From Asterella californica (Eukaryota > Streptophyta > Marchantiopsida > Marchantiales > Aytoniaceae), in assembly GCA_036924285.1 (NCBI GenBank), contig JAYKYS010000039.1, forward strand, positions 1 through 64,000: 64,000 bases of DNA, in the 5' to 3' direction. The notes under the pieces are model-generated. The model was not told where the DNA came from. It saw nothing but the letters and a program-made list of their open reading frames with translations, and made no database searches. Each line of letters starts with the position of its first letter. Position 1 is the stretch's first letter. The position numbers and the translations under genes are program-made. Positions 5,625 to 59,185 of this stretch are shown piece after piece.

Positions 5625-7421
5625 GTTCATATATACGATGGATTCCACTACGTCCAAAAAATGAAAAAGATTTCCACCAATGATATAGCAGGAAATTAAC
5701 CCATAGTACAAATACTAAAGCAGCCAAGTTCTGCTCCAGCATCTCCTGTAAAGTCTCCAAAAAGGAACAAAATAGAACAAGAGATAATTATTCCATCTGA
5801 AACTCCAACTGTAGATAAAAACTTATCTATATTTATGGATAATGTAGAATATGTGAAAAGAAATGATATTTTTGAAGGAATTATATTAAACAAATATGGT
5901 AATATTAATAGATTTATAACAAAAAGCTCATTTCTTCTTTTCGATATGGTTGATCGTCGTATGAAAAAGACGATTACATGTAGTGCTCAAGGCAACAACG
6001 TTATAAACTGGTCAGATAAAGTGAATAGAAATACGTATTCTAGGATACAATACTTTGGTCGTAAGGCCGTGTAGGTAGAGAGACCAGTAAAAACTCTCAG
6101 TCACAGAGAGAATGTCAAATTCATCCTCTTGATCGATGAGCAAACAACAATTCAGACCATTACACCTTGGAGTTCTACTCCAATTTTCAAATTCCGACAC
6201 TTCATGCCTCTCCGAATGTGCATGCGTCATCTTACTGTTTTCGATTCACGACAGTAAGACATATCTGTTGCTGTTATTGCTGTACACGGTGAAAACGAAT
6301 ATCAAAAATTTGAGATCACAATTGTGGATGGTGATTCTGAAGAAGGCAAGATGACGGTAAGTAATTATGTACATTAAATAACTTACGTTTCTAAATTTAC
6401 TTCGCAACTGATTTCAAAATTTTGCATTCATGAAACTTCTAGACTAACACATTTTCTTTTCATATTGTAGTTGATCATCCATTATGATTTCGCAACAGAG
6501 TATAAAAATATTGAGACTCGTTTTCACTCTGGACATGCTGTATTGTTGCACTTGAAATCAGTATCAAGACAGATTTTGTCCACAAGAGAAGAAAATGATC
6601 TTCCAAAGCTACATACACACGCAGCTACTATATGGGCAACTCCTTCGATCCAATCGAGAATTGATGTTTTGAAAAGAGTGCGGAGCGCTCACATCACAAG
6701 AGAAAATAAAAACATCAAGGTATATAAACAATTTTTTATGTGAATAATCAACTTTTCTATTCTCAGATATATCTTATGTTTATAACTTCTTTTCATGTGT
6801 TTAGGTACGTGGTACTTTCAGACCACGTAATTATGATGATAGACCCTACAAATACACATGCGTCACGTGCAATTCGACGCACTTACAAATTCAAGATTTG
6901 AATCATCTTCGAGGCTTTTGCGAAAGTTGTAATCTGGATTGTCAATTATGATCTGTGCTATGGATTGAAAGGTATGTGGAAGATCTTTCCAATGGTAAAC
7001 AATACATGGTCCATGCAAAAGGTAATTGGTTCCAAGATCTAACGGGCCTAGTGGAAACAGAGGTTGTCTAAAATTATGACAGCGACAACCATCGGGATAT
7101 GCTATTGGATCAAATTGAGGAGATCGCTACATTAGAAATTTTCTCGTTTAATTCAAACGGTGATTTTTGTGGATTTGATCAGGTTTATATTTATACTCAT
7201 TTCAATTGTAGAAGTATCATGATGATTTTTAATAATTTCTTTAAAACATTGACTCATGTCATCTCAAATTAATTGCATCAATATAAGAATCGCTATCGAA
7301 TATTACAAAACCACTAATATAATGACATCATTGAACGTCTAACTTTTCTTTTTAACATATCAAGGAGACTACATCTGCTGAGGGAGAATCGTCAAAAACC
7401 TCCACAATTCCAACCGTTTAA
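5625..7421 (+). pseudogene. RPA-like ssDNA-binding protein of the Helentron, with introns
   Basis: Spliced reading gives exons about 5625-6356, 6471-6719, 6805-7182 and 7365-7421, with GT..AG borders (GGTAAG at 6356-6361, TTGTAG at 6465-6470). The first exon opens with a YDGFHYVQ-M phrase like the start of RPA70 OB folds. A second OB-fold-like block follows (residues after 5835, ending IFKFRHF). Exon 3 holds a zinc ribbon CVTC..CESC as in the RPA C-terminal domain. It probably coated ssDNA during rolling-circle transposition. In-frame stops at 5697, 6072 and 6256 and one in exon 3 show decay. The first exon upstream of 5625 is not located. Confidence 0.6.
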
Positions 7422-7853
7422 TCTTTCAACATCGGTAAAGTTCTAAGAACTTTTTTTATATCTAAATAATCTAGTTACACAAACATACGTAACATTGAAC
7501 ACTTCAAGATCTGTTTTGTCTTCTGCATTTATTGTCACTATATATATGATATTTTACATAATTATAGTTTTACCATTGTAGTTAATTTCATATATCTAAT
7601 TTATAATAAATTTTATTTCTGACTTTTATTTTATAGCATTTTTGTTTAAGCATTCAAGTAAATCAATATCAGTTGTAAATATTCCAAGAGAGTTCATTGC
7701 TTGAAGTTTTCCAACAACGCTTTCTTTGATGTTGTTTTTCAGGTATATATCACATGATCAAACGGAGTCTGACCTAAGGTGATATATGTAGAACTTGAAA
7801 TTCTTTTCCAATTGCAACTCTATGAACGTGCGAAACACATGAAACAATAAAGC
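7422..7853. other. AT-rich spacer inside the Helentron
   Basis: Separates the RPA relic from the minisatellite. No coding or RNA signal seen. Confidence 0.4.
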
Positions 7854-8098
7854 CCACGGAGAAACGTATAAACTGAGAGAAACGAAAAACAAAAAGCGCT
7901 TTGAAACAAGAAAGTCCACGGAGAAACGTATAAACAGGGAGAAACAAAAAACAAAAAGCGCTTTGAAACAAGAAAGTCCACGGAGAAACGTATAAACTGG
8001 GAGAACAAAAAACAATAAGCGCTTTGAAACAAGAAAGTCCACGGAGAAACATATAAACTAAGAGAAACAAAAAACAAAAAGCGCTTTGAAATGCTACG
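7854..8098. repeat. 62-bp minisatellite, four copies
   Basis: Units start at 7854, 7916, 7978 and 8039 with CCACGGAGAAAC and contain AAGCGCTTTGAAAC. Copies differ by a few bases. The array gives overlapping open frames on the minus strand that are only a product of the repetition. Confidence 0.9.
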
Positions 8099-8245
8099 AA
8101 ACGCTACGACACGCTTTGAAACGCTTTGAAACAAAAACAAAAAATGCTATGAAACGCTTTGAAACGCTTTGAAACAAAAACAAAAAATGCTTTGAAATGC
8201 TTTGAAACGCTTTTGAAACATTTTTGAAATGCTTTTGAAACGCTT
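8099..8245. repeat. short tandem array of ACGCTTTGAA-type units
   Basis: A run of decamer-like units (CGCTTTGAAA, TGCTTTGAAA) separated by ACAAAAACAAAAA stretches. It continues the 62-bp minisatellite, whose unit also contains GCGCTTTGAAA. Confidence 0.75.
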
Positions 8246-8470
8246 ATTTACGAAATTTACTACCATTCATATGTGATGTGATTCACAAACATCTTTGCGA
8301 ACAAAAACAAATCAAAACGTAAAATTTAATTGAATTGAACGGAAAATTCAAGATTATTTCAAAGGTAAATACATCAGAAACGTTCATTACTCTAAAAACG
8401 TGACATCATTTTATACAAATTACATCAAACATCTTCACGCAGTGAAAATGTATGAAATTTAAACTTAATG

Positions 8471-8662
8471 CAACATATGAAATGTAGCAAATCTTCAAGA
8501 TTACATGATTTATGTGCTTCTGCTCCACACTGTTCTTGCTCAGAAAACTACCCAGATGAGAAGAAAGAGAACTCAAACTTCGTCTCAAACCATAATCAAA
8601 CAACCCAAGTTGAACAGCATGACGGTCATCATAATCAAGTAAGTGGATTACAACCTTTGCAT
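8471..8662 (+). repeat. direct repeat copy 1 (OTU N-terminal region)
   Basis: 192 bp nearly identical to 9034-9226. It begins CAACATATGAAATGTAGC and ends CAACCTTTGCAT. This copy keeps the reading frame that the downstream copy lost by a 1-nt insertion, so it preserves the ancestral N-terminus of the OTU protein. Confidence 0.9.
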
Positions 8663-8715
8663 ACAACAAGGAGCATGTATGGACAGATGTCACAGTAGCG
8701 TAGTAGCTGTCCTAG

Positions 8716-8982
8716 GTGAAGGAGTCATCAAGACCCGTAATACATCCCTGCAGATATATTCAACCTCCAGCTGCTAACAGAATCACTATTCCACTAAAAA
8801 ATCTATTATTAATTCAAAATAATCAAGACGTGGAATCAAAACTAATTATTACAAAAATTCGTGCAAAAGTATCACCTTTTAAAAAAGAAGTTCATAAATT
8901 TATTTATTCTAATTTAGAAGGTGAAATGCATTGCAGTACAAAAGTCAATCATGCTTCAAAATATATATACTTATTGCAATAA
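8716..8982 (+). CDS. 88-codon frame between the two OTU-start copies
   Basis: An open frame ending at the TAA at 8980-8982 that reads like real protein (lysine- and isoleucine-rich, VESKLIITKIRAKVSPFKKE). It lies between the direct repeats and shares the AT-rich codon style of the Helentron genes. I do not recognise it. It may be a displaced part of a Helentron protein or filler copied with the duplication. Confidence 0.2.
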   Translation: MKESSRPVIHPCRYIQPPAANRITIPLKNLLLIQNNQDVESKLIITKIRAKVSPFKKEVHKFIYSNLEGEMHCSTKVNHASKYIYLLQ

Positions 8983-9033
8983 AAAACGGATTGCATTATT
9001 AAATCAAATGTATATTAATTTATACGTTTGAAA

Positions 9034-9226
9034 CAACATATGAAACGTAGCAAATCTTCAAGATTACATGATCTATGTGCTTCTGCTCCACATTGTTCTT
9101 GCTCAGAAAACTACCCAGAGGAGAAAAAAGAGAACTCAAACTTTGTCATCAAACCATAATCAAACAACCCAAGTTGAACAGCACGACGGTCATCACAATC
9201 AAGTAAGTGGATTACAACCTTTGCAT
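9034..9226 (+). repeat. direct repeat copy 2 (OTU N-terminal region)
   Basis: Pairs with 8471-8662. Relative to that copy it has one extra base near 9140 (TTTGTCATCAAAC against TTCGTCTCAAAC), which puts the ATG at 9040 out of frame with the OTU domain. Confidence 0.9.
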
Positions 9227-10132
9227 GATTTTCATGGATTACAATTTCTAAGTTTATCAAACAACAAACATAATGTTCAGATGTCTAAAGATTTGTCTGA
9301 ATTCAAAAAGTGTGAAGATTTCGTATATACTCCAGGAGATTGTATGTTTGATTCGATACAATATTTATTGCATCATAAATTTTCTACCGCATTTTTACGA
9401 AATCAAACTCAAAATGAACTTTATAATATCTACTCAAGAGCTAGAGATACACATGATTCATTACTATTATCTTATTTCATGGAAGATGAATTAAGAGTGT
9501 CGCATCGTGTCGAATCTGTAGATGGATATATAACCAAAGTTGGTAAAATGGCAAAAGAAGGTGGTGCGTGGGGTGATTCTTTATGTCTCTTAGCTTTATC
9601 CTCCGTACTACAAAAACATATACACATCTACAGTTCTACTTCTAGAAAGAATATAATTCAATTTCCAAACAACAACTCGTATCATGTTACTTTCAATCTT
9701 CTATATGATGATAATGAAGGTAGTTCCGGTCATTACTAACCAATCGTATTGATTCGTGATGAATTTCTTACTGAGAAATGGGAGTATATAGTGAAACAAC
9801 TGCAAGATTTACGATTAATTCATCTAAATGTACCAATAGTACAATTAATACATAAATTTATAAGTAAAAATCCTATTTATGAGAATGACTTAAACACTAT
9901 TCAAACTAAAATTTATAAACTAGGTATAGATAAACTAAATATCCAAAAGACCAAAGTAAACCATCCTTTGCAAGATATTGACTCTCACCAATTAAACATT
10001 TTATATTCAGAACTATTATTATTCTATCAGAGATATCCGTATTTATCCATAAGAGATGTCATAAAAAATTTCATACAATCTCATAAACAATATGAGATAC
10101 AACTCTTTAGAATGAAAAAAAACACTTTCTGA
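9040..10132 (+). pseudogene. OTU-family cysteine protease of the Helentron
   Basis: The OTU core lies at about 9290-9739. The catalytic Cys is in PGDCMFDSI (codon 9341-9343) and the catalytic His is in SSGHY (codon 9731-9733), with the expected hydrophobic strand HVTFNLLY before it. OTU proteases cleave ubiquitin-like tags. In Helentrons such a domain accompanies the transposase, role not established. The frame is broken by the 1-nt insertion near 9140 and by TAA at 9737-9739 directly after GHY, where a Gln would fit. The same frame then runs on to 10132 as a Lys/Ile-rich tail without known domain. Confidence 0.75.
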
Positions 10133-10273
10133 CATAATAAAACAATACAAAATAATGAATAAGACTAATTCAATTAACACATCTAACCGTATTTCTAAAA
10201 AACGGAAAAACTATCATTAGAAGAAAAACACGTAGATACTTACTCCAAGTCTTTACTCGACGTTCCATATCAT

Positions 10274-12833
10274 TTGTGTGACATATGCTATAAACGTGAT
10301 TTCTTGAAGAATTTAAAATATATCAATCAAATTCATTACGATTTCATTTGCTCTTATGCTGAAACAACTAACATAACTTTTGAACAGCTTAAAGATAATA
10401 CAAGGATTTGTTTGATGTGTATGCGGTATATAAACGATAACAAAATACCTCTTTTCTTTGAGATATCTAGAGTTTACAATAACAATACGATACCATATCT
10501 TGAATTTTTAAACGAAGTCAAAGAAAGATTGATCTCACCGCGAGTCATGTTCGAAAATATTCATATATACAATGGGTTTCAATAATGGCATCTAAGAGGT
10601 AGTGTTATCAATGTCCCGTCAAATACAAACATGGTCCAAACACATTTATCACGTATGGCTGATGAAGAAGGTTCTATCATAGTAGAAATCAAAAGAAAAC
10701 TAACTCTAAAATCAATCTATAAAACAAGCTACGTTCGACCTAACAAAGTAATGCGAGCTTTACATTATCTTACTGATACACACTTATACAAACATCACAA
10801 TATCGAGCTAAATGAAAATTGGATTCACACTTTTAACGACAATTATTCCAAAGAACAACTCCGATTCGATGAAGTAGAAACCATCGAAACAAATAACGAG
10901 TTCGATAAAAATAATCATGAACCAAATACAAACACTGATACATTTATTGTAAACTTTTTAGATCCTGAAATGATTTACGCCAATGAAAAGTATAAACTTA
11001 CTGTGGCTCCTAGCGAGAGATATCACCCTTTGAGTTTATTCAAAGATGAATTTTGTGAAGAGACTAATTTTCCTAGTTTGTTTTTTGGCCACGGAAGAAA
11101 CAAACAAATCGTTTCAAAGATGTCATATCACAAACTAGCTTCATGGGAATTATTATACAAAACTCATAAATTTGCTAGACATTTACCAAACATCTTTTTC
11201 AAGATGTCCAAAATCTGCATCGAGAAAATTCTAAGCATTTCTTGGATTCGAGTAAGGAAAAGTAAACTACATGGCTCTCCTTTGACGGCGAAACAAGTCA
11301 AGGATGACAATTTCAAACAACAACTTCTTATATCAGATAAAGCTTTTCCTTGTTTGTCCCAATTACGATTCACTCCAGACTATTACCAAGTCGTTAAGCG
11401 AAATCTTTTCGTGATGATCCGACAATTAGGAAAACCTACATTTTTTATTACTTTAACTGCGAACGAAAAAAACTGGAAATCGTTGATGAACACCTTATTC
11501 AAATTGAACAAAATGGATAACCATATACCATTGCCGGACGATGAAAAAACCTTAAGTTCTTCACAAAAACATCAACTTCTTAGACAAGATCCTGTCACAT
11601 GTGCACGATATTATGAACACAGAACCGTAAGCTTATTCAACATAACCAATTAATTTTAGGAAATGTATCTGATTTTTTTTCGAAACTGAATTTCAAAGCA
11701 GAGACAGTCCACATGATCACGGACTATTGTGGATAAAAAATGCTCCTGTTTTCAAGATAGATCCTGATGAATCAATAACAACTTTCATAGAAGAGTATAT
11801 TTCTACTGATCATCACTTATTGAGCGAAGAGATGATCAAATGTCAAACTCATCATCACACAAATACTTGCTATAAGAAAAGATCTTCTTCTTGTCGATTT
11901 CGATGTCCATGGCATCCCATGTCGAAAACAACAATATTATAACCTTTAACTAACGATGAACTTGATGATGAAACGACGAGAGATATAAAGCTTAAATCTA
12001 TTAGAATTTCAAACATCATTTCTTCTTTCAAAACTGGATTGGATATGAACTTCGATAAGTATCTTCAACATTTAGAACTTACATATGAAACTTACTTATT
12101 AGCTTTAAGATATTCTATATCAAAACCTTCTATATATCTCAAACGTCATCCAATAGATATTTCCATTAGTTCTTTTCCAAAAAATGCTGCTTCCATTTGG
12201 CAAGCCAACACAGATTGTCAATACGTGTTGGATCCACATGATGCGGCACAATATTGTAACTCAAAAGTAGACAATACAATAACAAATGAGATGAAGAAAA
12301 TTAACAATAAATGTACCGAGGAAAATCAAGAAGTAACCACACGGATAAAGAAGTTAGGCAATGCATTCTTGAATTCAAGACAAGTTTCGGCTCAATTAGC
12401 CATCTATACAATCTTAAAATTACCTTTGTATCATGCTTCTCGTTCTTTTCAATTCATAGACACTAGTAGTCCATCCGATCGAACCTTCCTCCTCAAAAGT
12501 TCCAAACAACTATCTTCTGAAGATGATTCTTCAACAAACATAGGATTGCCATCCATCATAGATAAGTATGCACGACGTCCACAACATCTGCAAACAAATT
12601 CAATGGCTTTGATAGAATTCGTAGCCAAGTTTAATACTTCACAAAATAGAAGATTGAGAAAATCTAAAATCATTCGATGGATATGTTTCGACCAATATAA
12701 ACAACCAGAAGACTATTTCAGAGAGCAAGTACTGTTATATGTCCCTTTTCTTTACGACGAGAACAACATTAAAGATTCAACTGAAACATGGGAAAATACA
12801 TATAATAGACATAAATCACATATTCTATTGTAA
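10274..12833 (+). pseudogene. Helentron Rep (HUH nuclease) segment of the transposase
   Basis: Starts with a Cys-rich motif (CDICYKRD, later CLMCMRY) and a block ERLISPRVMF..RGSVINVP as in the DUF6570/Helitron-like N-terminal region. The Rep core follows: PTFFITLTANE, DPVTCARYYEHR, then EFQSRDSPHDHGLLWIKNAP with the paired His of the HUH site (codons 11712-11714 and 11718-11720), and later FLNSRQVSAQLAIY and LPLYHASRSFQF. Rep nicks and joins ssDNA in rolling-circle transposition. In-frame TAA at 10583, 11940 and 12831, and frameshifts near 11650 and at the T-run near 11682, disrupt it. The residue between the two His is Asp rather than hydrophobic. Confidence 0.8.
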
Positions 12834-14545
12834 CAAAATTTATATACTTTTAAGTACAATACGGATGAAGTAAACGAGGATTGGAAGAAATTTGAGGATG
12901 AGGCGGCAGAACTTGAAGAAATAAGAGAATATCATAACGAACAAAGCGAACCGGAACAGGATTCAAGCAATTTGGATTTGGACAATGTCGACTTAATGCA
13001 ACGAACTACTCTTAAATGTACTTCTAAGACTACAAATCGTGAAGAAACCTTCCCGATCAAAGATCTTCTAATACCAATAGAATCATTTTGTGCTGAATTA
13101 CGTCAATTGAACAAACAACAAAAGCTAATCTTCAATGATTGTATGTACAAAAAGAGACACTTTCCACATGAACCAATCCATTTATTTCTTACGGGAGAAG
13201 CAGGAACCGGCAAAACATTCATCTTATTATAAATTATACAAGGATTGTCATGGATATACGAAGATGATAAATCCAGATTTAATGATCTTGAACAAATAAA
13301 AGTTTTGAAGATAGCATACACAGGACGAGCTGCATATAACATACAAGAATGACTATTCACAGTGCGTTAGCGATCCCTAAAGACTCTTACGATATAAACG
13401 TATCAAAATTAAGTCCAGATCGACTAGATAAATACATCAAATATTATAGCCAATTAAGATTATTAGTGATAGACAAAATCTCTCTAATGGGCGCAAGAAT
13501 GTTCTCTTACATAAACCAAAGACTACAACAAATAACTCAGAATTTCAACCTTCCATTCGGTGGCATAGATATAATTGTTTGCGGTGATTTTTATCAAGTA
13601 CAACCTGTTCAAGATTCATGGATCTTTCAATCTTCTAATATTTATTCTCAAAATATTACCGCTAACATATGGTCTTCATTTTTCAAACACTGTGAACTGA
13701 CTCAACCTATGCGTCAGAACAATACAGCTTTTATACAAATTTTGAATCATATTCGCATCAACCAACAAACATCTTCTGATCTACATTATTTAAATTCAAC
13801 TTATCAAAAAATGTATTCTAACCAAACGATATACCTCATTTATTTTACACTAACAAAGATACGAAACTTCATAATCAATATGTATTTAGTATAACTGATG
13901 GGAACGAATATTTATTCCATTCAAAAGATCATTTTTCTTCCGTTATATCGAAAAGATTTAAGATATCCATAAATCCAAAAGATACAGCTGGATTACACAG
14001 TACTTTATCTCTAAAAGTTACCATGTTAGTAGAATTATGTTATAATTATAACACACGACATGGACTCACCAATGGAAGCAATGAGATTTTCATGTCCACA
14101 ACAACATATAACGATGATCAAATCATTTGGATTCAATTTTTTGATCCAAAGATTGGAACACAAACGAGGAACAAACAAAAATATTTGTATTCCAATAACA
14201 TTCATCCATCTTGGACGCCCATTATGAGAATTTCACAACAGTTTCCAATCAATAAATATACCAAAGAACATAAGATCACTAGAACACAATTCCCTGTTCA
14301 ACAAGCATCTGCACGAACTATCCACAGATCGCAAGGAGTGACCATGCATCAGGTAGCTTTCAGTCCCAAACACATAAATCGACACGGATTGACATACACT
14401 ACATTATCCAGAGTGAAAAATCCTAAGCACTTACATATATTACAATTGATCGAGCATCGTCATATAGTTGTAGACAACGGAGTCACTCTCGAAATGAAAC
14501 GGTTGAAACTAAAATCATCGTGGCAATTCCACATCCATGATCTTC
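12834..14545 (+). pseudogene. Helentron Pif1-type helicase segment
   Basis: Continues the Rep frame. Superfamily 1B motifs occur in order: Walker A LTGEAGTGKTFIL (about 13185-13225), TIHSALAIP (about 13352), a Walker B region VIDKISLMG (about 13466-13492), GGIDIIVCGDFYQVQPV (about 13559), LTQPMRQ (about 13698), then TIHRSQGVTMHQ and YTTLSRV near the end. The helicase would unwind the element during transposition. In Walker B the usual Glu after Asp is Lys (codon 13475-13477). TAA at 13230-13232 and frameshifts near 13345 and 13835 also break it. Confidence 0.85.
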
Positions 14546-15224
14546 AGATGAATATCTCATCTTCCACTTACATGCTCATACAATTTCTAAACACAAGATC
14601 ATTAATAAAACATCACCTTGATGTTCGAGCAGATCATAATTTACAACTATCTGATATTTTGTGCTTCAGTGAGACACTTATACAAAATCCTAGTTCTGTT
14701 TCACATTTTAAAGACGTCGAACGCTTTCAATATATACATACGTACACAAGTCGAGGTTTGCTACTAACATATCGAAACATAATGCAACTCTCGGCGCATA
14801 ATATTTTTGGAACTCATAACATGGAAATAATTTCTGCAGATTTCAACATTCTAACTCGTCGTGCAATTCACATCATAGTTGTATACAAATCTCCTCGTAT
14901 GCATGTCGATGAGTTTTTGATCAATTTTACTATCATTATTCAAAACATACCTAAGGATTATCCCACGATAATCGTAGGAGATTTCAATATCGATCTGCTC
15001 AAAATTGATGATCATCAAACTACATCTTTCGCATCTTTCATGACTTCATTCAATTTCTTCACAAAACCAACCACAAAATATGGATCAAATCTAGATCAAA
15101 TATGGGCTAACGTTACACAATACGAAAATCTCTCTTCATATCACATGCTTATTGGATAGATCATGATCCTATTTTTATTCTCTATAAAAAGCCATCACAT
15201 GTTACTATGTTCTCATTTACGTGA
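14546..15224 (+). pseudogene. Helentron C-terminal EEP/AP-like endonuclease
   Basis: In frame with the helicase C-terminus. EEP motifs are in order: FLNTRSL, a catalytic Glu in CFSET (about 14666), VYKSP, VGDFNIDL with Asp and Asn (about 14974-14997), SNLDQIWAN (about 15087), then IDHDPIF after a frameshift near 15140, with a stop at 15222-15224. This domain resembles endonucleases of CR1-like non-LTR elements and is diagnostic for Helentrons. Its exact job in transposition is unsettled. It is better preserved than the Rep part: one frameshift, no nonsense codon seen. Confidence 0.75.
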
Positions 15225-16131
15225 AAAATAAATTCAATCTTCTTTTCTTCATGTACTCATCAATAGAGCTATACAAGTGATGTTCATGATCATATATTTC
15301 AGATTCAAGAGATTTTCAACACTTGCGAAACAAGGTACTCCCTTTTACGTTTCTTGAAAAATAATAATTTTTATATAAATTGTAAATCATCATCATGTCA
15401 TGAGCTATTGACTTTACAAAATTCCTAAATGTATGCATCCACAACTGTTCAATACAATATAAACATGCTCATTTTAACATCCATAATATTCCAAATGTTT
15501 TGTTTCGCAGTTACGATTCATCATTGCTCTCAAGACGACCTCAAGATTCAAATCATTCTATACATTTCTTGCATATCTTATATATTATCGATACTCCCGA
15601 TGTACATAATCTTCACAACATGTCTCACAATCTTCATTATATATTTTCTCATTTGAAAAATAATCATATGTTATTATATTTTCATGTAGCTAAACAAATT
15701 AGTCTATTTATTTTCTTAATAAGCTCATTATTCGAATCATTCATACAAATTCATATGCATCGAGTTAAAGCTATTTTAACAATTATGACATCATATACTC
15801 CTATATATATTTTTTACAATAATTGCATCATACACAAACAAAAAACTAACACAATGTTATTTATGTATCTTTCCCTAACTTCCATAAATTTTGAAATGTA
15901 TGTAGTAACAGAGTCTGAAATTATCTTTCCTAACCTCCACAATATTCTAAATGTTCTTTTTTGCAGTTGTAACTTATCACTACCTTCGAATCGGTCCAAA
16001 GACTCATCAACTTCTACATTTTCATACATTTGAAGATTCTTAGGATCACTATCCTCAAAATGATCCGAAGCTTCACAAGTATATATTTGCATAAATGATG
16101 CAGACATGTTACTATCATCATATGAAGACAT
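15225..16131. other. AT-rich 3' flank of the Helentron with degenerate repeats
   Basis: Two diverged copies of about 95 bp, at roughly 15480-15575 and 15935-16030 (CCATAATATTCCAAATGTTTT and CCACAATATTCTAAATGTTCT), and a recurring TTGAAAAATAATNAT phrase near 15350 and 15650. A minus-strand frame at 15814-16131 begins acid-rich (MSSYDDSNMSASF) but has no known domain. It may be the element's 3' non-coding tail. Confidence 0.4.
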
Positions 16132-18721
16132 GTTGAAAGATGCATGTGATGACTTACATAAATTTATGAACTACTTCTTTCAATCTCTGAAGATAATTTT
16201 ATCATGGCTTTCAAAGACTATATTGATTTTCATCATTTTTAATATTCATCCACGTCTATAGAATTACACTTTCACATATATCACTTTCTAAGACTCGTGG
16301 GATGAGATGGATTTCATTTTTAACATTCACCTTCACAGATTTCACCTTCTAGGATTGTGAGGTCTTGCAAACGCATAGCCCTTGCAATTCCATTGCATGC
16401 ATAGCGACTTGTTTGAATTTAAATTCAATCATAAATAATCATACAGAGAATTGCAAAAAAGTGAAATGAAAATCCATAAGTGAAGTCTATAGCAACGCAC
16501 CTCCAACCATTGCTTGTTCTTCCGGACGTTTCTCAACTATTATAAAGTATTCAATTAATACTTCAGTTTATTACCTAACTCTTCGGTCTAAGAGTAGTTA
16601 ATTTAAAGTTAATAAATTAACCTTGCAATCCTCTTCAGTCGAAAGATGGGAGGGGTGAATATGCAAGAGATACTTCTTTCCGACATACATAGTTTGCTTG
16701 TACACAAGCAATCACAATCCAACTTTTCTAGAGTCTCGATAGTCTTAACAGTTAAAGTATATAGGATCTCATCGAATAAAATACACATGGTAATGAAAAT
16801 GAACTATTAAAGTGACAATAGACTATTGCTCGAAACAATATATGGTATAGAACTGAAACGGTTAGATTTATATCGTCAATATAAAAAAACGAGCTTAGAC
16901 TTATTGGTCATTTCCATATGTATTCGCATAAACTAATGGTAGAAAGAATATTCCTGTTTCTTTAGAGAATCTTCCCTTTCAACTTTGAAATCCCCAAGTA
17001 CTAGCACATCTTCAGCAGATAGAGTAAAACTATGATAATCAAATGGACGATCAGCATATATTATAATTATTAATTGTCTTAGAACGAGATATAAGAAGAA
17101 TAAGTAGACCGGCAAACCATGGTCCAAGCTTTAGTCACTGCTAAATTCCTGATATCTATCTTATCTTTTGAGAGCATATCGTTTGATCTGAAAAAGCGGT
17201 TGGGAGAAAGCATATAATTTTGTCACTTGGTTCCACAGCAAGACAACTATAACATTAAAATACGCATCCCAAGTGAGGTGGGGAAGTTTCAAGCGAAAAA
17301 GACGTAGAAGAATTCTAGGCTGGCAGTGATCTTTCGTTGAGTATGTAGACTGGGGAGAGAGAAAAACAAAATATTAACTTGTGAAAAAAATGTTTTCTTT
17401 TATCTCCAATGTGGATTGTACACTCAAGATAAGGCTAGTGTATGCGGGGCTCAACTTTGGGGAACTTTTGTTTATTTTGTGTTCCAGTAAATTATCTAAT
17501 TTAAACTTAAATAATTAAAAAAATATAGCTATCTATGTAATATTAATTGTTAGCCAGCCCTAGATTTACGAGGAGTTCTAAAGATAATACATAAGCATAG
17601 CTCGTGCACACACGCTTCTTGAACTATTATGGCAGTCCTCTTACTGCTTAGAGGAAAATGGGAATCCTGAAATTTAATTCATTCCCTAACCTCCCGACCG
17701 TAAAGATTAGGGAATAAATGACTGGAATAATCTAATAGTGTACTACCCTAAAACTACAGTATTCCATAAACCAGTTCGTACGCGGAGGCTAACACTAGAG
17801 TGCCTATTTGGCATGAAAAGCTGTATAGGACAGGTTATAAAACCTATTGAAGGAAAACAGTTTCATCCGGAGGACTTCTTTTTGTGCATTAGAAAACTAA
17901 AAGAAAAATGTAAAATAGCTATGAAGAAAAGAGTGAGAGCGATGACACATCTTTGCTGATTCTTACAGGTATCTACGGAGGTGCTCCCATTTACGGAGAA
18001 ACCTTTTACACATGTGACAAGAATGGGAAAGGTTTGAAGGGCCATTTACGGGACCTTTTTTGACGAGTTTAGGTTGATACTTCCACCATATTTGTTTCTT
18101 TGATTATTAATACTTTTGATGTACGCCAGTTCTGGTTTATATCAACAAATGATTTACCATCATGTATTTTTCGTGTTTATTTTAAATATTTTCGTTCTCT
18201 ACAAAATAAAAACCGGTTCTGGTTATGAGAATTTCATAAATACCTTCACTATGATTGTGATTTAGTTACTGATGTTATCATTCAAAACCATTCTTTATAA
18301 GTAACCATACCATAACCATAAAGGTGTCTCTGTATAACCAAAGGCCAAATTCATTCCTCAAATTAGAAGAGTTCATATTGCCTGTGGTATAGTTTGCATA
18401 TATCCATGAATCATTTAGCTCCGTAACCTGCTTGGACTGCTCGGACTTGAGTCTACATGGCGTCTACGTTATGCTGAGATGGAATGGGACTTGAACCATA
18501 TAATTACCTCACTCCCGAAAGTAGTGGCCATTGCGAACTGAGAATCACGGCCAGATCCAAACATAACCTATAAGCATAGCGTGCAAACACATATATCTGA
18601 AACTACAAGACAAGAATCCTATTATCAAATGATCACTATTCATGATAGATACTAACTTTTATTTAGCTTTTTTTATATTAAAATTAAATAATACATTAAT
18701 GAGCATGCTGCACTTTTTCCA

Positions 18722-33292: not shown

Positions 33293-33680
33293 AGTAAATT
33301 TTGTGCCTCGTTGGGTCGAGAGAATTTGCCGGAGTTCATTGATCAGGGGGTGAACTTGTGCCTGCGCAGCTATGGCTGCAGAAAGCGTTCTTGCGTTCTT
33401 GTGGTTGTTCGCAGTAGGGCCCGCGCGCCTCGTATTAGAATTCATGGCCAGCTCCCCGCATCGAAGTCTAGTTTATTGTGCGAGAGACGCCGATCAGTAC
33501 ACGGCACTTCACAGAGCGGTCATGAGCGACAATCTGGAGATCGTCAGACTGCTCTTTCGCATCTACTCTACTTCCCCTTCCCTAGACCTGCACGCCCGGA
33601 ATGGCTGGACTGCTCTCCACATTGCCGTGTTCGCAGAAAATTTTGACATGGTCGATTTTCTGATGAAGTGGTACGACGAC

Positions 33681-33770
33681 AGCGATCATTCCCCACCTCG
33701 TGATTGGGACTTTCGCGACGACAACAGCGATCATTCCCCACCTCGTGATTGGGACTTTCGCGACGACATG
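33681..33770 (+). repeat. 45-bp in-frame tandem duplication in the ankyrin gene
   Basis: 33681-33725 and 33726-33770 are nearly identical and encode SDHSPPRDWDFRDD twice, between the second and third ankyrin repeats. The reading frame is kept, adding 15 residues. Confidence 0.95.
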
Positions 33771-34245
33771 TGGATGACTCCGCTGCAGTATGGAGTGTTG
33801 GAAGGCTTCAGCAAGGTCGTCGGCAGGCTACTGTATTCAAAAGCTTTCGGACACCATGTCAATTTTGTAGATTACTTCCGACGGTCGACCATGCACATGA
33901 CTTGCGGCCGTGGAGACTCTGTGCTGGTGCAGGAGCTGCTGGCTAAACCAGTCGTCGACTCGAATTCGGTCGATTGCTGCGGTTACACTCCTCTGCATTG
34001 GGCCGTGTATGTAAGCGCAGCTGAAATTGTGAGATCATCCGTCACCAAAACGACAGAGAGAACGATTAGAATGACTGAAGAAGACAGTCAGGGTCGGCCG
34101 GTTCTGCAAATTGCAGTAGAGCACCAAGAGATCAATCACAAAGTGGGCAAGGATATACAGAAGCTTCTGCTAACAGTTCCCGAAATGAAGAACGAGGTGG
34201 AGGGATTGTATCGAGACAGACAAGTATTCGTTGACGCCGCAAACG

Positions 34246-34307
34246 TAATCATCGTCGATGCAGCATTGATCGCCAGTAATCATCGTCGATGCAGCATTGA
34301 TCGCCAG
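34246..34307 (+). repeat. 31-bp tandem duplication breaking the PGG frame
   Basis: 34246-34276 (TAATCATCGTCGATGCAGCA..) is repeated exactly at 34277-34307. As 31 is not a multiple of three it causes the frameshift. The 290-codon frame from 34297 carries the rest of the gene. Confidence 0.95.
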
Positions 34308-35169
34308 TGTGACATTCGGAGGATGGCTGCAGCCTCCCAAAGGCTCTAATTTGGACCTACAAATCTTCTGGGTTTTCAACAGTCTCTCCTTCTTCTGCTC
34401 CCTGGCCACAGTCCTGGCCGGAGCGGGCACGGTTCTGCCCATGTCCGACGTCTATATCAGCAACGCGGTCAGAAGCATTCGGCAATGGCTGGCCCTCACA
34501 TCATTCCTTCTTCTCATCTCCGTCCTCTTGGTACTCGGAGCATTTGCTGTCGCCGGGTTCGCGTCTCTGCCACCGATTCCACTCTCGCAAAGGAACATGA
34601 TCATAACGACGAGTGTGGGCATCATCATCTGCGGCACCACCGGCGTCTTCTTTCTCAATCGGCTTTTGAAAATTAAGGTTATGAGGGGTTTCATGGTTCT
34701 CTTCAGTAGTCTCTTTCGCCGCATGAGGTCTAAACGCAGAAGAAACATTTTGCAAGCGGCCACTGTTCTGGTTAAAAGAGGGCTATTCGACGGTTTCGAT
34801 TTGGGGGTATATTTCGATTTGGTTCCTATTTTAGAAGGCCATCTGAAGCGACAAAGCGGAAGTGACGATGCGAATGAGAACGTCAAGGAAACTATGAAAG
34901 TCTTCGAGGAAGCTTTTCAGACGTTTAGAATCGGAGGGGTAGTTGACAAGTTCCGCATGTTGAAGCTGACAGAGGTTACTCACGATCATTTGCATCTCTG
35001 GGGACAGTTTCCCCCTGAGCATTATCGTAAACGAGCGCTCGAGAAAGACATGCTATCGTTGGCCAAAGCCAAAACTAACATTTTTCAAGAGAAGAAAAGA
35101 AAACTTGATCAAGAGAAAACACTATTGTATACCCTTGACATGTCTTTCAAAGAATGGAACTCAGGATAA

Positions 35170-40859: not shown

Positions 40860-41600
40860 TCGTAACGGACTTTGCAAAGAACATGGCGGACACCAACATC
40901 AGTATGGATGGATGGGGCAGGTCTGGAGACTTGAACGTACGTTGAACTGTTGACGACCGATTCATGCAGTGAATGAACAGTAGGATGATATAATTCAGTC
41001 GGAGTCAGCTTTCCTGCGACCGACCGCAACCAAGACTCCAGAGCATGACCGTGACCTATCGACTCGTGTGGGTGACACTGACCATCAGCGGTACATAACC
41101 GCACTCACGTTCATTTGGTTAAGCAACACAACATTACCAGGATGTGCAGTCGATGGAGTATTTTGCTGAAAGAAAAGTTTGTATGAAAATTCTCATGAAC
41201 TCGGTCAAGCAGAGTAAGACATTGTATCCAACCTCCAAGCACGGGATCCGAACACGGGACCCCCTTGGAAGGAGGATCAGAGCTGAACCGTGATCTAGAA
41301 AATGAGAACCGTCACCGATACCCCAGAGCTAATGCTCGGGTCTTTGATCCTCTGTTTGTTGTCTCTCTCTAAAAGACCAATTGTGTTCGACTTCTTGCTT
41401 CAACGAATAGCAGCCACTAGTCGGAATCGATTGTATATTGTCTTGGAGATTGCACTGAAATCAATGGTTCCGTTCTCATTTTATCTATCAATGTCTCGAT
41501 AGATAAAATTGATCATTGATAGTTTATATAGAGTTTTACCTGCTCCCTGATATTATTTATAATAATCTGTGTTAGACATCTACGATGATCCATCTATCAT
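40860..41600 (+). repeat. large repeat, plus copy (partner at 57.0-59.2 kb inverted)
   Basis: Two contiguous blocks, 40860-41110 and 41113-41600, match in inverted orientation 58935-59185 and 57015-57530. Shared wording includes GGTCTGGAGACTTGAACGTA and ATTGTGTTCGACTTCTTGCT. The inner block carries TTTTATCTATC..GATAGATAAAA near 41479-41508. Likely an old unclassified transposon. Confidence 0.8.
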
Positions 41601-44028: not shown

Positions 44029-44257
44029 TGTAGAAAGATCGATACTTCGAGGACACTCCAAGAAGAGAGAGAGCGAGTAGACAAGGAAGTAAAATAAGAA
44101 TGAGATGAGAGAGGCTTTGCCTCTCTCTGTATATATAGTGGAGGTGAGTACAAGGGAAACCCTAATGGTGGGTTAGCCCTCTAACTAACTCTAACAACCC
44201 TAACCACTCCGGCTAATGGTAGCCGTCGATCTACTAGAGCTTGGGACTATATCAACA
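44029..44257 (-). repeat. copia 3' LTR
   Basis: 229 bp. In element orientation it begins TGTTGATATAGTCCCAAG and ends GATCTTTCTACA. It differs from the 5' LTR near 44049 (CGAGGACAC against CGATGACAC) and near 44095 (AATAAGAATG against AATAGGAATG). The gag-pol frame ends inside it at 44200. Confidence 0.95.
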
Positions 44258-47200
44258 CTCCCCTTCAAGCTCATCTCTACATCCTGTACTCCTAGACAAT
44301 GTCTGAAAGCATCAAACTTATCTCTAGGCAACGCCTTAGTGAAAATATCGGCAACCTGATCTCCTGTGCTCACATAACTGAGCTCAATCTCTCCTGCAAG
44401 GACCTTCTCTCTAATAAAGTGATAGTGCACCTCAATGTGCTTCGTCCTAGCATGGAAAACAGGATTACTAGCTAACTTCATGCTGCTAATGTTGTCTGTA
44501 TATACAACAACAGGATCTGTACACTCCACACCAATATCAGATAGCAGACATCGAAGCCAGATCGATTCGCATGTTGCGTTCGTTGCTCCTCGATACTCTG
44601 CTTCCGTGGATGACAAAGCAACTGTGGGTTGCTTCTTAGAAGCCCAGCTTATAGCAGCGCTTCCAAGTCCAAAAGCGTAACCTGACGTGGATCTCCTGTC
44701 GGTACTTCCTGCCCAATCAGCATCTGTGTAGCCATGTAACAACAATGGTCCACCGTATCGATAGTGAAGTCCGTACTGCATCGAGAACTTCACGTAGCGG
44801 AGGATCCGCTTGACAGCCTCAAAATGTGGTCTCCGTGGTGACCGCATGAATTGACTAATCAGACCGACAGCATAGCTCAAGTCTGGTCTGGTGATGGTCA
44901 AGTAGATAAGACTCCCAACCATCTGTCTGTACATGCGTGGATCATCCAGCAACTCACCATCCTCTGCTCCTAGCTTTACCCCTTGCTCTAATGGTGTAGC
45001 AATGGGTTTGCAATCAAGCATACCAAATCTCTCAAGCATATTGAGAGCATACTGTCGCTGTACAAGCCAAACATCCTTCCCATCTCTAATGAACTCCACG
45101 GCAAGGAAGTACTTGAGTTCTCCTAAGTCCATCATCTCGAACTCGGATTTCAAGTGATCCTTGATCTGAGAAATAAGCTCCTCAAAGTTACCGGTAATGA
45201 TCAAGTCATCAACATAGATGGTGATCACAACAATCCGGTCTCGTATTCTCAATGAATACAAGGTAGAGTCTGAACTACACAGGTGGAAACCAAGAGACTG
45301 CAAGTAAGAATTGATCTTTGCATACCATGCTCTTGGTGCCTGTTTCAGACCATAGAGAGCCTTCCGTAACTTACATACACGGGAAGGGAACTTAGGATCC
45401 TCATAACCAGGAGGTTGCTGCATGTAGACCTCCTCCTCAAGATCGCCATTGAGGAAGGCGTTCTTGAAGTCCATCTGGTGCATCTTCCAACCTTTCTGAG
45501 TTGCAACTGCAACTGCTGTTCGAATAGTCACCATCTTCGCAACATGAGCAAAGGTCTCCTCAAAATCCACTCCATGTTGCTGTGCGTAGCCCTTAGCTAC
45601 CAATCTGGCCTTGTACCGACACACGGTACCATCCGAGTTGCGCTTGACCTTGAAAACCCACCTGCAACCAATCGCTTTCTTACCCTGAGGTAAGTCTACC
45701 AACTCCCAAGTCTATTGGTGATGAAGTGCAGCAAGTTCAGCTTCCATAGCACTTACCCATTGGGTCTTGTGCATCGCCTCCTCAAGCGAACTCGGTTCCT
45801 GTTCCTGAAGAACATTGGCCATATATGCATGGTGCGCAGCAAGAAAACCTTCATGCATATACCTACTCACTGGATGTTTTGACTGCTCAGATCTGCGAGA
45901 GGTAATCGGTGCACTAGTCACCTCCCCTTGCAACTGATCTGACGTAGACGCCAAGGTCTGGGACAAAGTATCCAAGGGATGTGAAAGATCCACATATCTG
46001 GATGAGTCAAACATACGCTGCAATAGCACGCGCTCATCCTGTGTAGAAACTACACTAGTTCCACTAGGCTGTGTTACGTGGACTCCAGCGTTAACAACAG
46101 CTCTATGTGCAACAGATTCTGATCTGGAATCAGTGACTTCTCCAGATCCTCCACTCAACGTACTACTCTGAGGTACTACATTGGACTGACTCCTTGGTTC
46201 TACAGTAGGTACAGGGATGGCTATCACAGGTGCAGGTGCAAACCAAGACTGTAGCTCATCAAACACGACATCTCTACTGATATAGAACTGCTTGGACGAA
46301 GGATTGTAGCACCTATATCCTTTCGTATCAGAAGCATAACCAAGGAAGATACATCTATCTGCTTTCGGATCTAGTTTCTTACGTCTTTCATCAGGTATGT
46401 GCACATAACAGATACATCCGAAAACTTTAAGGAAAGAGTAATCAGGCTTACTGCCTGTGAAGACCTCCATCGGTGTCTTGCTGTGGACTGCCGCTGTAGG
46501 CATCCGGTTCATCAGATACACCGCACATGAAACAGCTTCTGCCCAGTAAGGTCTAGGCATGGTCTTCTCGTTCAACATCGCACGAGCAGCTTCTGCTATG
46601 TGTCGATTCTTGCGCTCCGCAACCCCGTTCTGCTGCGGACTGTAGCTGCAGGTCTTCTGGCGTCGGATACCATGCTCACGCAGATATGCATCGAACTCTC
46701 CAGAAAGAAACTCGCCTCCTCCATCAGATCTCAAATAGAGATAGATGCTCCAGACTGTTTTTCCACCAACTTGCGGAAAGTCTGGAATGCTGACAGTACT
46801 TCGGCAGAGGACTTGTTTCTCAACAAATAGATCCAAGTATAACGCGAATGATCATCAATGAACGACACGAAGTACTGGTCATACTTGACTGAGAAGCAGT
46901 CCATACATCAGTGTGAACAAGCTCCAGAAGCTTGTTCGCTCTACTGCCTGATCCCTTAAAGGGCTGTCTAGCTTGCTTGCCGAATTGACATGCTGCACAG
47001 ACTCCAATGGGCTCACTGGATTCGAATTTGGGCAGACCTGTAACCAGGTCAGAACTCGGAAGGCTTTTCAGCCTCTGAAAGTTCATGTGCCCAATTCGCT
47101 TGTGCCAGATGTCAATATCAGACACTACTGGACCACTCTGTCCATACATGGCAGCATGTAACTTAGGCGCAGATGCATCTAGTTTAAACAGCCTACCACT

Positions 47201-48481
47201 CTTGATACCTCGAGCTATGACAGTGCCATTCGAATCTTCAATAAAGCATCCATCTTTATTAAAACGCACTTGCAGACCCTGCTCTATCAACTGTCCTACA
47301 GATAGCAGGTTTCTAGTCAATGTAGGTACATGTAAGACATTCCGTATACCAGTAAACGTTGAGGCAGGAATGTCAAGTGGAATGTTACCCTTGTGCTGGA
47401 TCTTGTGCTTGGTGTCATCTCCTGTCACCATAAACTGTGGAGTCTCCACAGGCTCGAGTGAACTAAACCACTCCCGATGGGGAGTCATGTGACTGGTGGC
47501 GCCGGAGTCGATCACCCAGTCAGTCTGTGGCTCGAAAGCCGCATAACTCTGATGCGTAGTAATCAGCAATTGCTCCGAATAGACATGCTCAGTGACTGCA
47601 TAGCCTTGCTGGTTGCTGTTACCTTGTTGGGGGTTGTTGTCGTGTTGTCTCTGATCGTTCTGCTTCTTGTAGCACTGATTCGCATTGTGGCCTTGTTTCT
47701 TGCAGTAGTTGCAGGAACCAGGCGCTCTTCTCTGATTGTTGTTGGAACCACCAGACTGTTGCTGGTTCTGCTGGTTCTGCGATTGCTGTTGCTGTTGCTG
47801 TCCGCGACCCCGACCACGTCCAGCACCTTTGCCACGACCCCTACCTCGATATCCTCCAGAACCTGCAAAATAGACAGATTCTTGCTGACCCGTCGAAGTA
47901 GAACTCCCCAGTAGGCGCACCTCCTCTCCTAACATCATAGGAACAAGCTCATCAAACCGCGGAAGAGGTTCTCTGGTCGAAATCGATGTTATGAACTGTT
48001 TGTACTCTGCAGGCATTCCTTGCAATGTGGCTCCGATCAAGACAGTGGGATCAATCTCGACTTTGACAGAAGATAGCTGATCCGCAAGCTGCTTGACCCC
48101 GTTCACATAGTCGTTTATGCACATCGACCCCTTCTTCACGATATTGAACTGCTGCAGCAATTGTAGCTTCCGCGCCTCTGTTCTGGATTGAAACAGATGC
48201 GCGAGTGCATCCCAAGCTTTCTTGGGCGTATCACAATCCTGGATGTGACCGATCATCGATGCTGAAACTGTCAGCGCGATGTAGTGAATAGCCTGATATG
48301 AGCGCTTCTTCCACTCCTTGAATTTCGGATCAGAAATTGGCACTTCAGGCGCTTTCTCCTCCTCAGTGATAAGATCCCATAGATCTTGTCCCTGCAGGAA
48401 AGTCTTCATCCGGAACTTCCACACTTGGTAGTTGTTCTTGTCGAGTTTCTCTCCAGTGATCAAAGACACAGACTCCGCCAT
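44200..48481 (-). pseudogene. copia Gag-Pol polyprotein, two frameshifts and one stop
   Basis: Best start MAESVSLITGEKLDKNNY at 48481; the open frame extends to 48568. Order: Gag (NNYQVWKFRMKTFLQGQ), RNA-binding zinc knuckle CNYCKKQGHNANQC, protease WVIDSGATSHM, GAG-preintegrase WHKRIGHMNFQRL, integrase (HTDV, FIDDHSRY, SPQQNGVAERKNRH carrying the D, D and E), reverse transcriptase (MDFKNAFLNG, YVDDLIITG), RNase H (YTDADWAG, SSTEAEY) to HFIREKV and FTKALPR. Frame changes near 46905 and 46740 within integrase, and TAG at 45712-45714 before the RT block, inactivate it. Everything else is well preserved. Confidence 0.95.
44258..44266 (-). other. polypurine tract of the copia element
   Basis: GAAGGGGAG in element orientation, directly abutting the 3' LTR. 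It primes plus-strand DNA synthesis. Confidence 0.85.
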
Positions 48482-49141
48482 AGCTGCAATGTCGAAATTG
48501 CACTGTTCTGTACGCGGAAAACCTCCCAGAAACTGCACAAAACTCGTCTCTCCCCACCGCGCGATCAAGAGTTGTCACAAGTCACGACGAGGCGACTCCA
48601 CGAACTCCTCCTGTAGCGACAACGAGAAAAGAACCTGTGCGCGAACTGTAGGTGTACAAAACACGACGGAAACGTCGAAAGAACACACCAAGAAAGGTCG
48701 AAACTGGACCAAATGAGGTCGAAAATGGGCGTGCGACCCCTTGAAATTTTCAGATATTTTCAAATAGCTAAACCCTAAACCCACCCTTATTCGAAACAGG
48801 ATTAGTTTTGGACTCAAGTCCTAAACTTTTGTTTTGGTCGAAAAAGATCCGTTTGAAAATCTGCCGCTGGAAATCTCCAAATCGACTGAAACTTGGCCCA
48901 GTACACAATTCGCACCTTCTGAGCAAGACAGCCTTGGAAGGACTGGTCGACAGAAAATAGCGAGAAAAAATCGTCTAGGCCTCCGAAATCGCGTTCAAAG
49001 TTTCTGGTGGCGAAAGAAACGGTTTCGCCTCACCCGAACGCATCAGCAGGATAGAGCTCGACATCAGACACAACTCCGGCTGCTCTCTCCTGTACTCCAA
49101 ACTCCATCTTGCCTATCAGCAAGGGACACACACTCTCACCA

Positions 49142-49153
49142 GCTCTGATACCA
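49142..49153 (-). other. primer-binding site, initiator Met-tRNA
   Basis: TGGTATCAGAGC in element orientation, directly abutting the 5' LTR. It matches the 3' end of plant initiator Met-tRNA. Confidence 0.95.
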
Positions 49154-49382
49154 TGTAGAAAGATCGATACTTCGATGACACTCCAAGAAGAGAGAGAGCG
49201 AGTAGACAAGGAAGTAAAATAGGAATGAGATGAGAGAGGCTTTGCCTCTCTCTGTATATATAGTGGAGGTGAGTACAAGGGAAACCCTAATGGTGGGTTA
49301 GCCCTCTAACTAACTCTAACAACCCTAACCACTCCGGCTAATGGTAGCCGTCGATCTACTAGAGCTTGGGACTATATCAACA
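49154..49382 (-). repeat. copia 5' LTR with TATA box
   Basis: 229 bp. A TATATATA core lies at 49255-49262. Next to it, a 9-bp perfect hairpin GAGAGAGGC-TTT-GCCTCTCTC (49232-49252) would lie near the start of the transcript. The plus-strand limit gives the element-orientation start TGTTGATATAG. Confidence 0.9.
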
Positions 49383-54300: not shown

Positions 54301-54729
54301 TACAAAAGGTGATCCAAACTTTTATGTTTTGATTACTTCTCAAGATATTGTGTTACTGTTACTGTACTTGGATGATCTGATAATACTGGGAAGTAATCAA
54401 GGAGGAGTACAGAAGATTCAGCAAGCTTTATGCAAGGGTTTGGAATGAAAGATCTAGGACTTCTCAACTTTTGCCTTGGAGTTCAGTTTCTGGAACACAA
54501 TGAAATGTTATACCTCTCTCAGGCAAGATACACAGAAAGTATACTTCAGGATTACTATCATTTTAAGATTTCAGATCCCTTTATGAAGAAATCTACACAA
54601 ACTCTAGTGCAAATTATCATGCAAGGTCTAAAACAAACTCTCCTACTAAAATCTAGATTTAAGGTCTCACATAGATTTGATATAGAGCTTCAAATTATCT
54701 TGTCAACTTCAAACCCGAGTAGTTCGTAA
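51347..54729 (+). pseudogene. copia Gag-Pol relic
   Basis: Gag begins at ATG 51347 (KLDSTNYPIWCFKVQAIFQN), with a zinc knuckle CNYCKKCGHYAYEC (about 52110). Protease is present in a shifted frame (DSGASNHITSKKEWF, about 52275). Integrase follows: LLHTDLCGPF, VVDDFSRYIW, TPQQNGVVERRNK. Reverse transcriptase follows: KALGCKWVYKIKRHADE, MDVKNAFLNGILEED, YLDDLIILG. RNase H is missing. At least eight stops or frameshifts (for example at 51643, 52996, 53379 and 54043). It is older than the neighbouring copia. Confidence 0.9.
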
Positions 54730-57014: not shown

Positions 57015-57530
57015 TAGAGTTGGGTCGTGTACATTATGGATAGATAGATCATCATAGATGTCTAACACAGATTATTATAAATAATATCAGAGAGCATGTA
57101 AAACTCTATATATAAACTATCAATGATTAATTTTATCTATCGAGACAAAAGAAAACCAAAATGAGAACGGAACCATTGGTTTCAATGCAATCTCCAAGAC
57201 AATATACAATCGGACTTCGACTAGTGGCTGCTATTCGCTGAAGCAAGAAGTCAAACACAATTGGTCTTTCAGAGAGAGGCAAGAAACAGAGGATCAAAAA
57301 TCCCCGAGCATTAGCTCTGGAGATATCGATGATGGTTCTCATTTTCTAGATCACGGTTGAGTTCTGATCCTCCTTCCAAAGGGGTCCGGTGTTCGGATCT
57401 CGTGCTTGGAGGTTGGATACAATGTCTTATTCTGCTTGACCGAGTTCATGAGAATTCTCATACAAACTATTTTTTCAGTAAAATACTTGTTCGATTGCAC
57501 ATCCTGGTAATGTTGTGTTGCTTACACTCT
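57015..57530 (-). repeat. inverted copy of 41113-41600
   Basis: Reverse complement of the inner block at 41.1-41.6 kb, with scattered substitutions. It shares TATCTATCGAGACA and AGCAACACAACATTACCAGG (as reverse complement). Confidence 0.8.
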
Positions 57531-57849
57531 CTAGTCTCAAGATAACGACGTCCATTAATGAAAACACAAGCCAGATTCCAGACTTGTCGATATCTTTAGG
57601 TTTTTATGGATTTTCATGACGTTGATTTAAATAAATTATTTCCATCATCTATCATTTGATCTTATCATCAACCACCATTTTACTTTAAAAAGTAAAATAA
57701 AAACTCGGGATCAATAATATAAGCATTGAGACCACTATAAAGAGAGCCGGAAAGTGTTGTCTTCTAGACATGCAGCCGCAAACGATATTATTGGCCTGTT
57801 ACGATATCTGTTCAAATACTGTACTGAAAATAGGGATGGTTCGAGCTTG

Positions 57850-58660: not shown

Positions 58661-58934
58661 TGCCGAGCTTGAGCACTGGGAGGGCAGTTGCCGTAAAAAA
58701 GATTTACACTTCTGCTAACTTTAATGTGACAGTTCTTTATTGAAGATACTGTGGAGGGCATCCGCCTTGACAACGGTACGGGAAAATATGATTACCACTT
58801 TTGACAACCATTATTTCCGGAACACTGGATCCGGAGATACCGTAGACCGATATAAGTTAGTGACAGACTTGACAGAATTTAATTCTTCTAGGATGTTGGC
58901 ACGTAGAGTCCAGAGGCTCTACGTCCGTCCCATG

Positions 58935-59185
58935 CATGATAACGAAATGAACGTGAGTGCGTCATGTACCGCTGATGATCAAAGTCACCCACACAAGTCG
59001 ATGATGGGTCACGGTCATGCTGTGGAGTCTTGATTGCAGTCGGCCGCAGGAAAGCTGACTCCGACTGAATTATATCATCCCATTGCATGAATCCGTCATC
59101 AACAGTTCAACGTACGTTCAAGTCTCCAGACCTGCCCCATCCATTCTTAGTGATGTTGGTGTTCGTCATGTTCTTTGCATTATGT
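58935..59185 (-). repeat. inverted copy of 40860-41110
   Basis: Reverse complement of the outer block at 40.9-41.1 kb (AAATGAACGTGAGTGCG; CAACGTACGTTCAAGTCTCC reads as its complement). About 1.4 kb separates it from the companion block ending at 57530, while in the plus copy the blocks adjoin. Confidence 0.8.

Follow-up and report, generated by a model that had tools for sequence, protein, structure and literature searches.

A degenerate Helentron in a contig of the marchantialean plant Asterella californica

Whether land plants carry Helentrons of their own is the question raised by the first 64,000 nucleotides of contig JAYKYS010000039.1 of the Asterella californica assembly (GCA_036924285.1), hereafter the window, in which an earlier note had read a Helentron with RPA, OTU and Rep-helicase-endonuclease functions in plant DNA at positions 5625 to 15224. 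The forward strand of the window carries, from about 9242 to 15188, the collinear relics of a single large protein comprised of an OTU protease, DUF6570, Rep/HUH, a Pif1 helicase and a C-terminal EEP endonuclease. We consider this locus to be the degenerate remnant of a once autonomous Helentron that entered a plant genome long ago (probability about 0.9). Helentrons as a kind are already known, and it is the host group that is the point of interest.

In the available part of Thomas et al. (2014; PMC4067079), plant Helentron matches are few, short and low in copy number, with contamination not excludable, while fungi are described as having Helentron-type Rep proteins, and oomycetes and algae as having similar sequences; the Phytophthora element of that study has no EEP. 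The available part of PMC5148889 treats Helentrons with an endonuclease, often with OTU, as a distinct group, and gives zero EEP domains in the fungal proteins screened and no fungal Helentron with an endonuclease. The host range named in the earlier note (animals, oomycetes and fungi) holds for fungi as regards Rep proteins of the Helentron type and for oomycetes as regards similar sequences, and fails for EEP in the Phytophthora element and the screened fungi. A review of land plants (PMC9033089) describes Helitrons with RepHel and RPA, the word Helentron being absent from the portion of its text available, and the available portion of PMC6213432 holds nothing on plants. Among the listed titles and abstract openings of the open-licence literature, no report of a verified plant Helentron was found.

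Gene order and decay of the polyprotein

The features of the polyprotein are as follows (database homologues are designated P0001 and so on).

8446-8662, +: first copy of an approximately 220-bp duplication of the OTU polyprotein start, 92% identical to 9006-9226
9006-9226, +: second copy of this duplication, running into the OTU frame
9242-9748, +: OTU cysteine protease domain with GDC and GHY (Pfam, tblastn; stop at 9737)
10187-11626, +: DUF6570 and first part of Rep, Helitron_like_N (Pfam, tblastn; stop at 10583)
11673-13343, +: remainder of Rep (HUH, two-tyrosine motif) and start of the helicase with Walker A (tblastn; stops at 11940, 12831 and 13230)
13352-13843, +: Pif1 helicase core (Pfam PIF1; 43% identity to P0001 by tblastn)
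13822-15156, +: helicase C-terminus fused to the EEP endonuclease in a single open frame (Pfam, tblastn)
15147-15188, +: EEP tail AYWIDHDPI in frame +3 past a frame shift (tblastn, 64% identity over 14 residues to P0002)

The best database relative, P0001 (2126 residues), has the same domain order and shares 39% identity over 99% of the joined query (10199 to 15156). By tblastn it is found in the window as five segments in collinear order, though not in one frame (9281-9745, 10187-11626, 11673-13343, 13352-13843 and 13831-15114), which excludes chance; collinear tblastn matches were also obtained for P0035, P0003, P0004 and P0002. The OTU domain, with the GDC and GHY motifs named in the earlier note, lies in the open reading frame (ORF) 9044-9736 (Pfam, E value 6.5e-12), and by tblastn this region is 27% identical to P0035 and 32% identical to P0001. 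ORF 10586-11650 matches Helitron_like_N (4.3e-13) and DUF6570 (4.1e-6), and ORF 13340-13891 matches PIF1 (2.8e-18), which bears out the Rep and helicase, the HUH motif (SPHDHGLLW, within 11673-11939) being in a different frame from the Helitron_like_N match. The stretches 11673-11939 and 11943-12830 have no Pfam match of their own and were placed by tblastn, by which 11673-13343 is 40% identical to P0001 residues 924-1488. Exo_endo_phos was matched in 13822-15156 (E value 8.8e-6; 26.1 bits against a cut-off of 24.5), and the EEP tail bears out the end at 15224 proposed earlier. As in Helentrons, Rep/HUH and the Pif1 helicase belonged to one ancestral protein, collinear though interrupted, and the accessory OTU protease detected by Pfam is common, though not universal, among them.

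The OTU, Rep, helicase and EEP domains named in the earlier note are present; the interruptions, on which it was silent, are many. Interior stops of the polyprotein are found at 10583, 11940, 12831 and 13230, another follows GHY at 9737, and more lie in 10130-10199, while the frame changes near 11650, 13345, 13840 and 15130. A 9-nt deletion near 12270 removed the second tyrosine of the Rep two-tyrosine motif, and at the Walker-B pair the window has DK, versus DE in all ten relatives compared. The histidines of HUH, the lysine of Walker A and five positions of the EEP are intact. Within the EEP, the N, E, GDFN and LDQ positions are kept and the final DH is shifted to frame +3; the H that the alignment shows at the final site is an artefact caused by the frame break. 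Because of the stops, the frame shifts, the tyrosine deletion and the Walker-B glutamate change, the copy is, judged by its sequence, dead, and the polyprotein can no longer be made. A reading of TAA as a sense codon was considered, since each of the five stops counted between 9737 and 13230 is TAA, and was rejected: the residues of the relatives differ at these sites, a TGA stands at 10130, and TAG and TGA occur upstream.

Beyond what is described here (the order of the genes, the identity of the domains, the position in the trees and the decay), the mechanism can be sketched from the protein families. The intact ancestor would have encoded one polyprotein (OTU, DUF6570, Rep/HUH, Pif1 and EEP); the upstream exons may have supplied another protein by splicing. 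Rep would nick one strand at the element end and stay bound to it through tyrosine, Pif1 would peel off the single strand, and this strand would insert elsewhere at a target that EEP is thought to nick; OTU may process proteins or remove ubiquitin.

Directly past the EEP domain, a 209-codon open frame (15404-16030, +) has a frame-specific codon score and no Pfam match, and is overlapped on the opposite strand by an ORF (15817-16170) that is protein-like too. A 38-nt repeat occurs in the same region, at 15475 and 15931.

Relatives of the element and the EEP fusion

The joined query retrieved 34 homologues at an E value of 1e-3 or better, 29 of which were aligned (all except P0025, P0026, P0031, P0032 and P0034), and a wider search passed 562 proteins, 42 of the best 120 being aligned. 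Rep-helicase trees were built with 40 and with 24 rows and an EEP-only tree with 20. Both Rep-helicase trees unite the window with P0001-P0004, P0035-P0038 and P0042 in a ten-row set, with a support of 100 (40 rows) and 100/100 (24 rows). In Rep, the window is 36-43% identical to this set and 25-34% identical to ten other database rows; in the helicase, the corresponding values are 36-46% and 28-35%. Two members, P0036 and P0038 (LOC131876217 and LOC131860407; 36-41% identity to the window), are proteins of the conifer Cryptomeria japonica located on contigs of 933 and 737 Mb. The animal rows (Oculina, Mytilus, Saccostrea, Labeo and others) fall outside the set, the next rows out being P0016 and P0041.

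A single open frame of 445 codons runs from the helicase C-terminus into EEP, and P0001-P0004 and P0035 align by tblastn across the junction, which 13822-15156 spans with 40% identity to P0001 residues 1652-2082. At least 150 EEP columns are filled by 56 of the 64 aligned database proteins (the others being P0008, P0019, P0020, P0023, P0027, P0033, P0036 and P0042), or by 55 once P0038 is set aside, whose columns are filled by an unrelated tail with 12% identity and zero catalytic residues. The EEP-only tree places the window with P0001-P0004, P0035 and P0037 (90/96, slightly below the star threshold of the tool), in agreement with the Rep-helicase trees.

It is this C-terminal, in-frame EEP, together with the Rep-helicase trees, that identifies a Helentron rather than a canonical Helitron, as had been claimed. 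The only canonical Helitron row is a 163-residue fragment of the bat element Helraiser (PDB 7lcc), present in the 40-row tree, where it stands as a very distant outgroup (24% identity over 156 Rep residues); the separation of the window from canonical Helitrons, which was to be checked by phylogeny, is judged against this bat fragment and no canonical plant Helitron. A canonical plant Helitron with RPA would share the rolling-circle Rep-helicase and the host kingdom with the window, and differs from it in having no EEP. Could such a Helitron, with RPA and RepHel, simply lie next to the endonuclease of an unrelated long interspersed nuclear element (LINE)? EEP domains are frequent in LINEs, which makes the idea a natural one. 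According to the available part of PMC4683698, RPA genes are borne by many plant Helitrons. We nevertheless hold this arrangement to be extremely improbable: the single open frame, the alignment across the junction and the concordant EEP tree make an independent LINE insertion unlikely, the EEP being collinear with that of the relatives. Apart from its low identity to the window, Helraiser matches the Helentron Rep profile (E value 4e-11) and, via its helicase, the whole-protein profile (2.5e-50).

Helitron2 or proto-Helentron elements have a related Rep-helicase and no EEP, unlike the window. In the name Helitron-5_SMo, SMo presumably stands for Selaginella. Helitron2 is reported from Chlamydomonas and as Helitron-5_SMo (available part of PMC3627910), and its difference in EEP from the Helentron type is described in the part of PMC4067079 available. 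The animal Helentrons in that same part of the latter share Rep, Pif1 and EEP in one protein with the window, whose database relatives in addition carry DUF6570 and often OTU; the animal rows P0006, P0007 and P0029 have 26-35% identity to the window in Rep and helicase and lie outside its set. Among the matches listed, many of the animal-Helentron type carry PF04843 without OTU, while the window has OTU.

Likewise among the matches listed, P0006, P0011, P0012 and many others have PF04843 (Herpes_teg_N) in the place that OTU takes elsewhere, as though one type of cysteine protease could stand in for the other. A scan of IMG/VR gave 72 pattern matches and zero relatives. The loci of a contig scan were not used: among the best 80 of 349, one filed under Photobacterium (L001) matches over most of the protein, and the other 79, from bacteria-filed records, match mainly in the helicase.

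The upstream exon gene

Upstream of the OTU frame, the following features were found.

5628-6356, +: exon 1 of a decayed intron-containing gene, with 3 in-frame stops versus 19 and 20 in the other frames
6471-6719, +: exon 2, an open frame with AG before and GT after it
6805-7185, +: exon 3, with 2 in-frame stops and a CxxC...CxxC pattern interpreted as the zinc ribbon of RPA
7840-8245, +: tandem arrays lying after the exon gene and before the OTU gene, a 62-bp unit repeated 4.1 times followed by CGCTTTGAAA-like units (Tandem Repeats Finder)

The three exons are split by two GT-AG introns, with GTAAGT directly after exon 1. The codon score of exon 1 exceeds all of 3000 background draws, and those of exons 2 and 3 are reached by 0.03% and 0.9% of them, small fractions that are rough, since the background was taken from the flanks and part of it (15.3-24 kb) also served in training. 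The proposed frame shares the codon bias of the other genes of the element, and the other two frames score lower. Positions 5628-7185 are therefore likely to represent a spliced gene, now decayed, in the orientation of the polyprotein.

The RPA identity of this gene, proposed earlier, draws on one CxxC...CxxC pattern and a general look, and is unproven. The exon read-through gave zero Pfam matches at an E value of 1 (pieces searched at 10 gave weak, unrelated matches only), zero matches to 1564 candidate proteins at 1e-3, and no match to an RPA chain in PDB. A profile built from three solved RPA zinc-ribbon domains placed exon 3 at rank 967 among itself and 2000 of its shuffles, that is, without signal, and two single-sequence folds were useless (pLDDT 40 and 30). 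Given the distant origin of the Drosophila Helentron RPAs (PMC4683698, available part), these failed homology tests do not refute RPA either. With RPA, itself a common though not universal accessory of Helentrons, unproven, the earlier wording of all three accessory functions was too strong. The upstream exons might instead belong to a host gene or be a piece of another transposon, the element then consisting of OTU, Rep, helicase and EEP only. We regard this as a serious possibility, if the less probable one: the exons have no RPA or other homology, but they lie on the strand of the polyprotein, have its codon bias and are similarly rich in AT, and a second ORF for RPA is frequent in Helentrons (PMC4067079, available part).

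Plant context and neighbouring sequences

The plant origin of the window was approached through two retrotransposons.

44029-49382, -: Ty1-copia retrotransposon with gag and RVT_2 domains and 229-nt long terminal repeats (LTRs) that are 99% identical
51739-54445, +: second Ty1-copia element, broken into gag and RVT_2 pieces

The former is a recent insertion. Exact sites for TGGTATCAGAGC, which we take to be the usual primer site of plant copia elements, are present at 49142 and 50889, with 0.01 expected by chance; the site at 49142 directly abuts an LTR of the first copia element and is the only one seen to do so. No tRNA or Rfam family was detected in the window at gathering scores. These elements and sites, together with the Cryptomeria proteins in the same tree set, lend indirect support to the claim of plant DNA.

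That the contig, or its first 24 kb, has its source instead in an animal, alga or protist that lived on the plant appears improbable to us. In favour of such contamination, animals provide most of the named hosts among the matches listed, the plant matches of Thomas et al. carried the same doubt (PMC4067079, available part), and three bacteria-filed records with Helentron-like proteins (L001, P0015 and P0117) are what contamination would give. However, the same 64-kb sequence holds both copia elements and both plant-type primer sites, the nearest about 29 kb from the Helentron, and the Cryptomeria proteins lie on contigs that cannot be small contaminants. The three records are filed under a Photobacterium metagenome-assembled genome (MAG; L001, CAMQXY010000195.1), Pseudomonadota (P0015) and Thiodiazotropha (P0117), and probably reflect eukaryotic contamination of MAGs.

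Several points weigh against a plant Helentron. The plant identity of the window is indirect, coming from copia elements, primer sites and Cryptomeria kin, and the contig could be chimeric. The window is the outermost row of its set, the other nine joining at 85/82, so that a closer kinship to the Cryptomeria rows than to the seven further database rows is not shown, and the Cryptomeria gene models, unlike the window, have no EEP. The tree tool flagged an odd letter make-up (the window, P0038 and others) and the very long branch of Helraiser, which is 15% filled. RPA is unproven, and no second copy was found within the 64-kb window. Neither were termini, a 3' palindrome, subterminal inverted repeats or signs of insertion in T-rich sequence, the end features of Helentrons, although one decayed copy offers little to judge them by. 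The exact inverted repeats that the flanks share do not exceed chance: there is one 12-mer, of which one arm (at 15161) falls within the EEP tail, and there are four 11-mers, two of which form part of that 12-mer. No 12-mer with at most one mismatch is followed by a hairpin (eight crude shuffles gave 0, 0, 3, 0, 0, 0, 0 and 0), so that the search for termini proposed in the earlier note yielded none.

Even so, the window sequence, taken with the Cryptomeria proteins, speaks for Helentrons that genuinely belong to plants, and the conifer proteins among the nearest relatives suggest that plants may carry a little-studied branch of them. It is tempting, though slightly less than an even bet, to see here an old land-plant clade of complete Helentrons with OTU and EEP, kept apart from the animal ones, with the window, the Cryptomeria genes and several database proteins as its members. 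With a Helentron in a long plant-like sequence, and chromosome-sized conifer contigs in the same set, old descent versus transfer becomes directly testable. Plant repeat annotation that seeks only canonical Helitrons would miss Helentrons.

Elsewhere in the window, an ankyrin-repeat ORF (33372-35169, +) is overlapped by a membrane-rich-looking ORF without Pfam match, and the two may belong to a single host gene interrupted by an intron or a frame shift. The inverted stretches at 40873-41428 and 57213-59179 are 90-92% alike, lie 16-18 kb apart and are likely two copies of one repeat. Three tandem 157-bp units are located at 59634-60104, the second 79% and the third 74% like the first.

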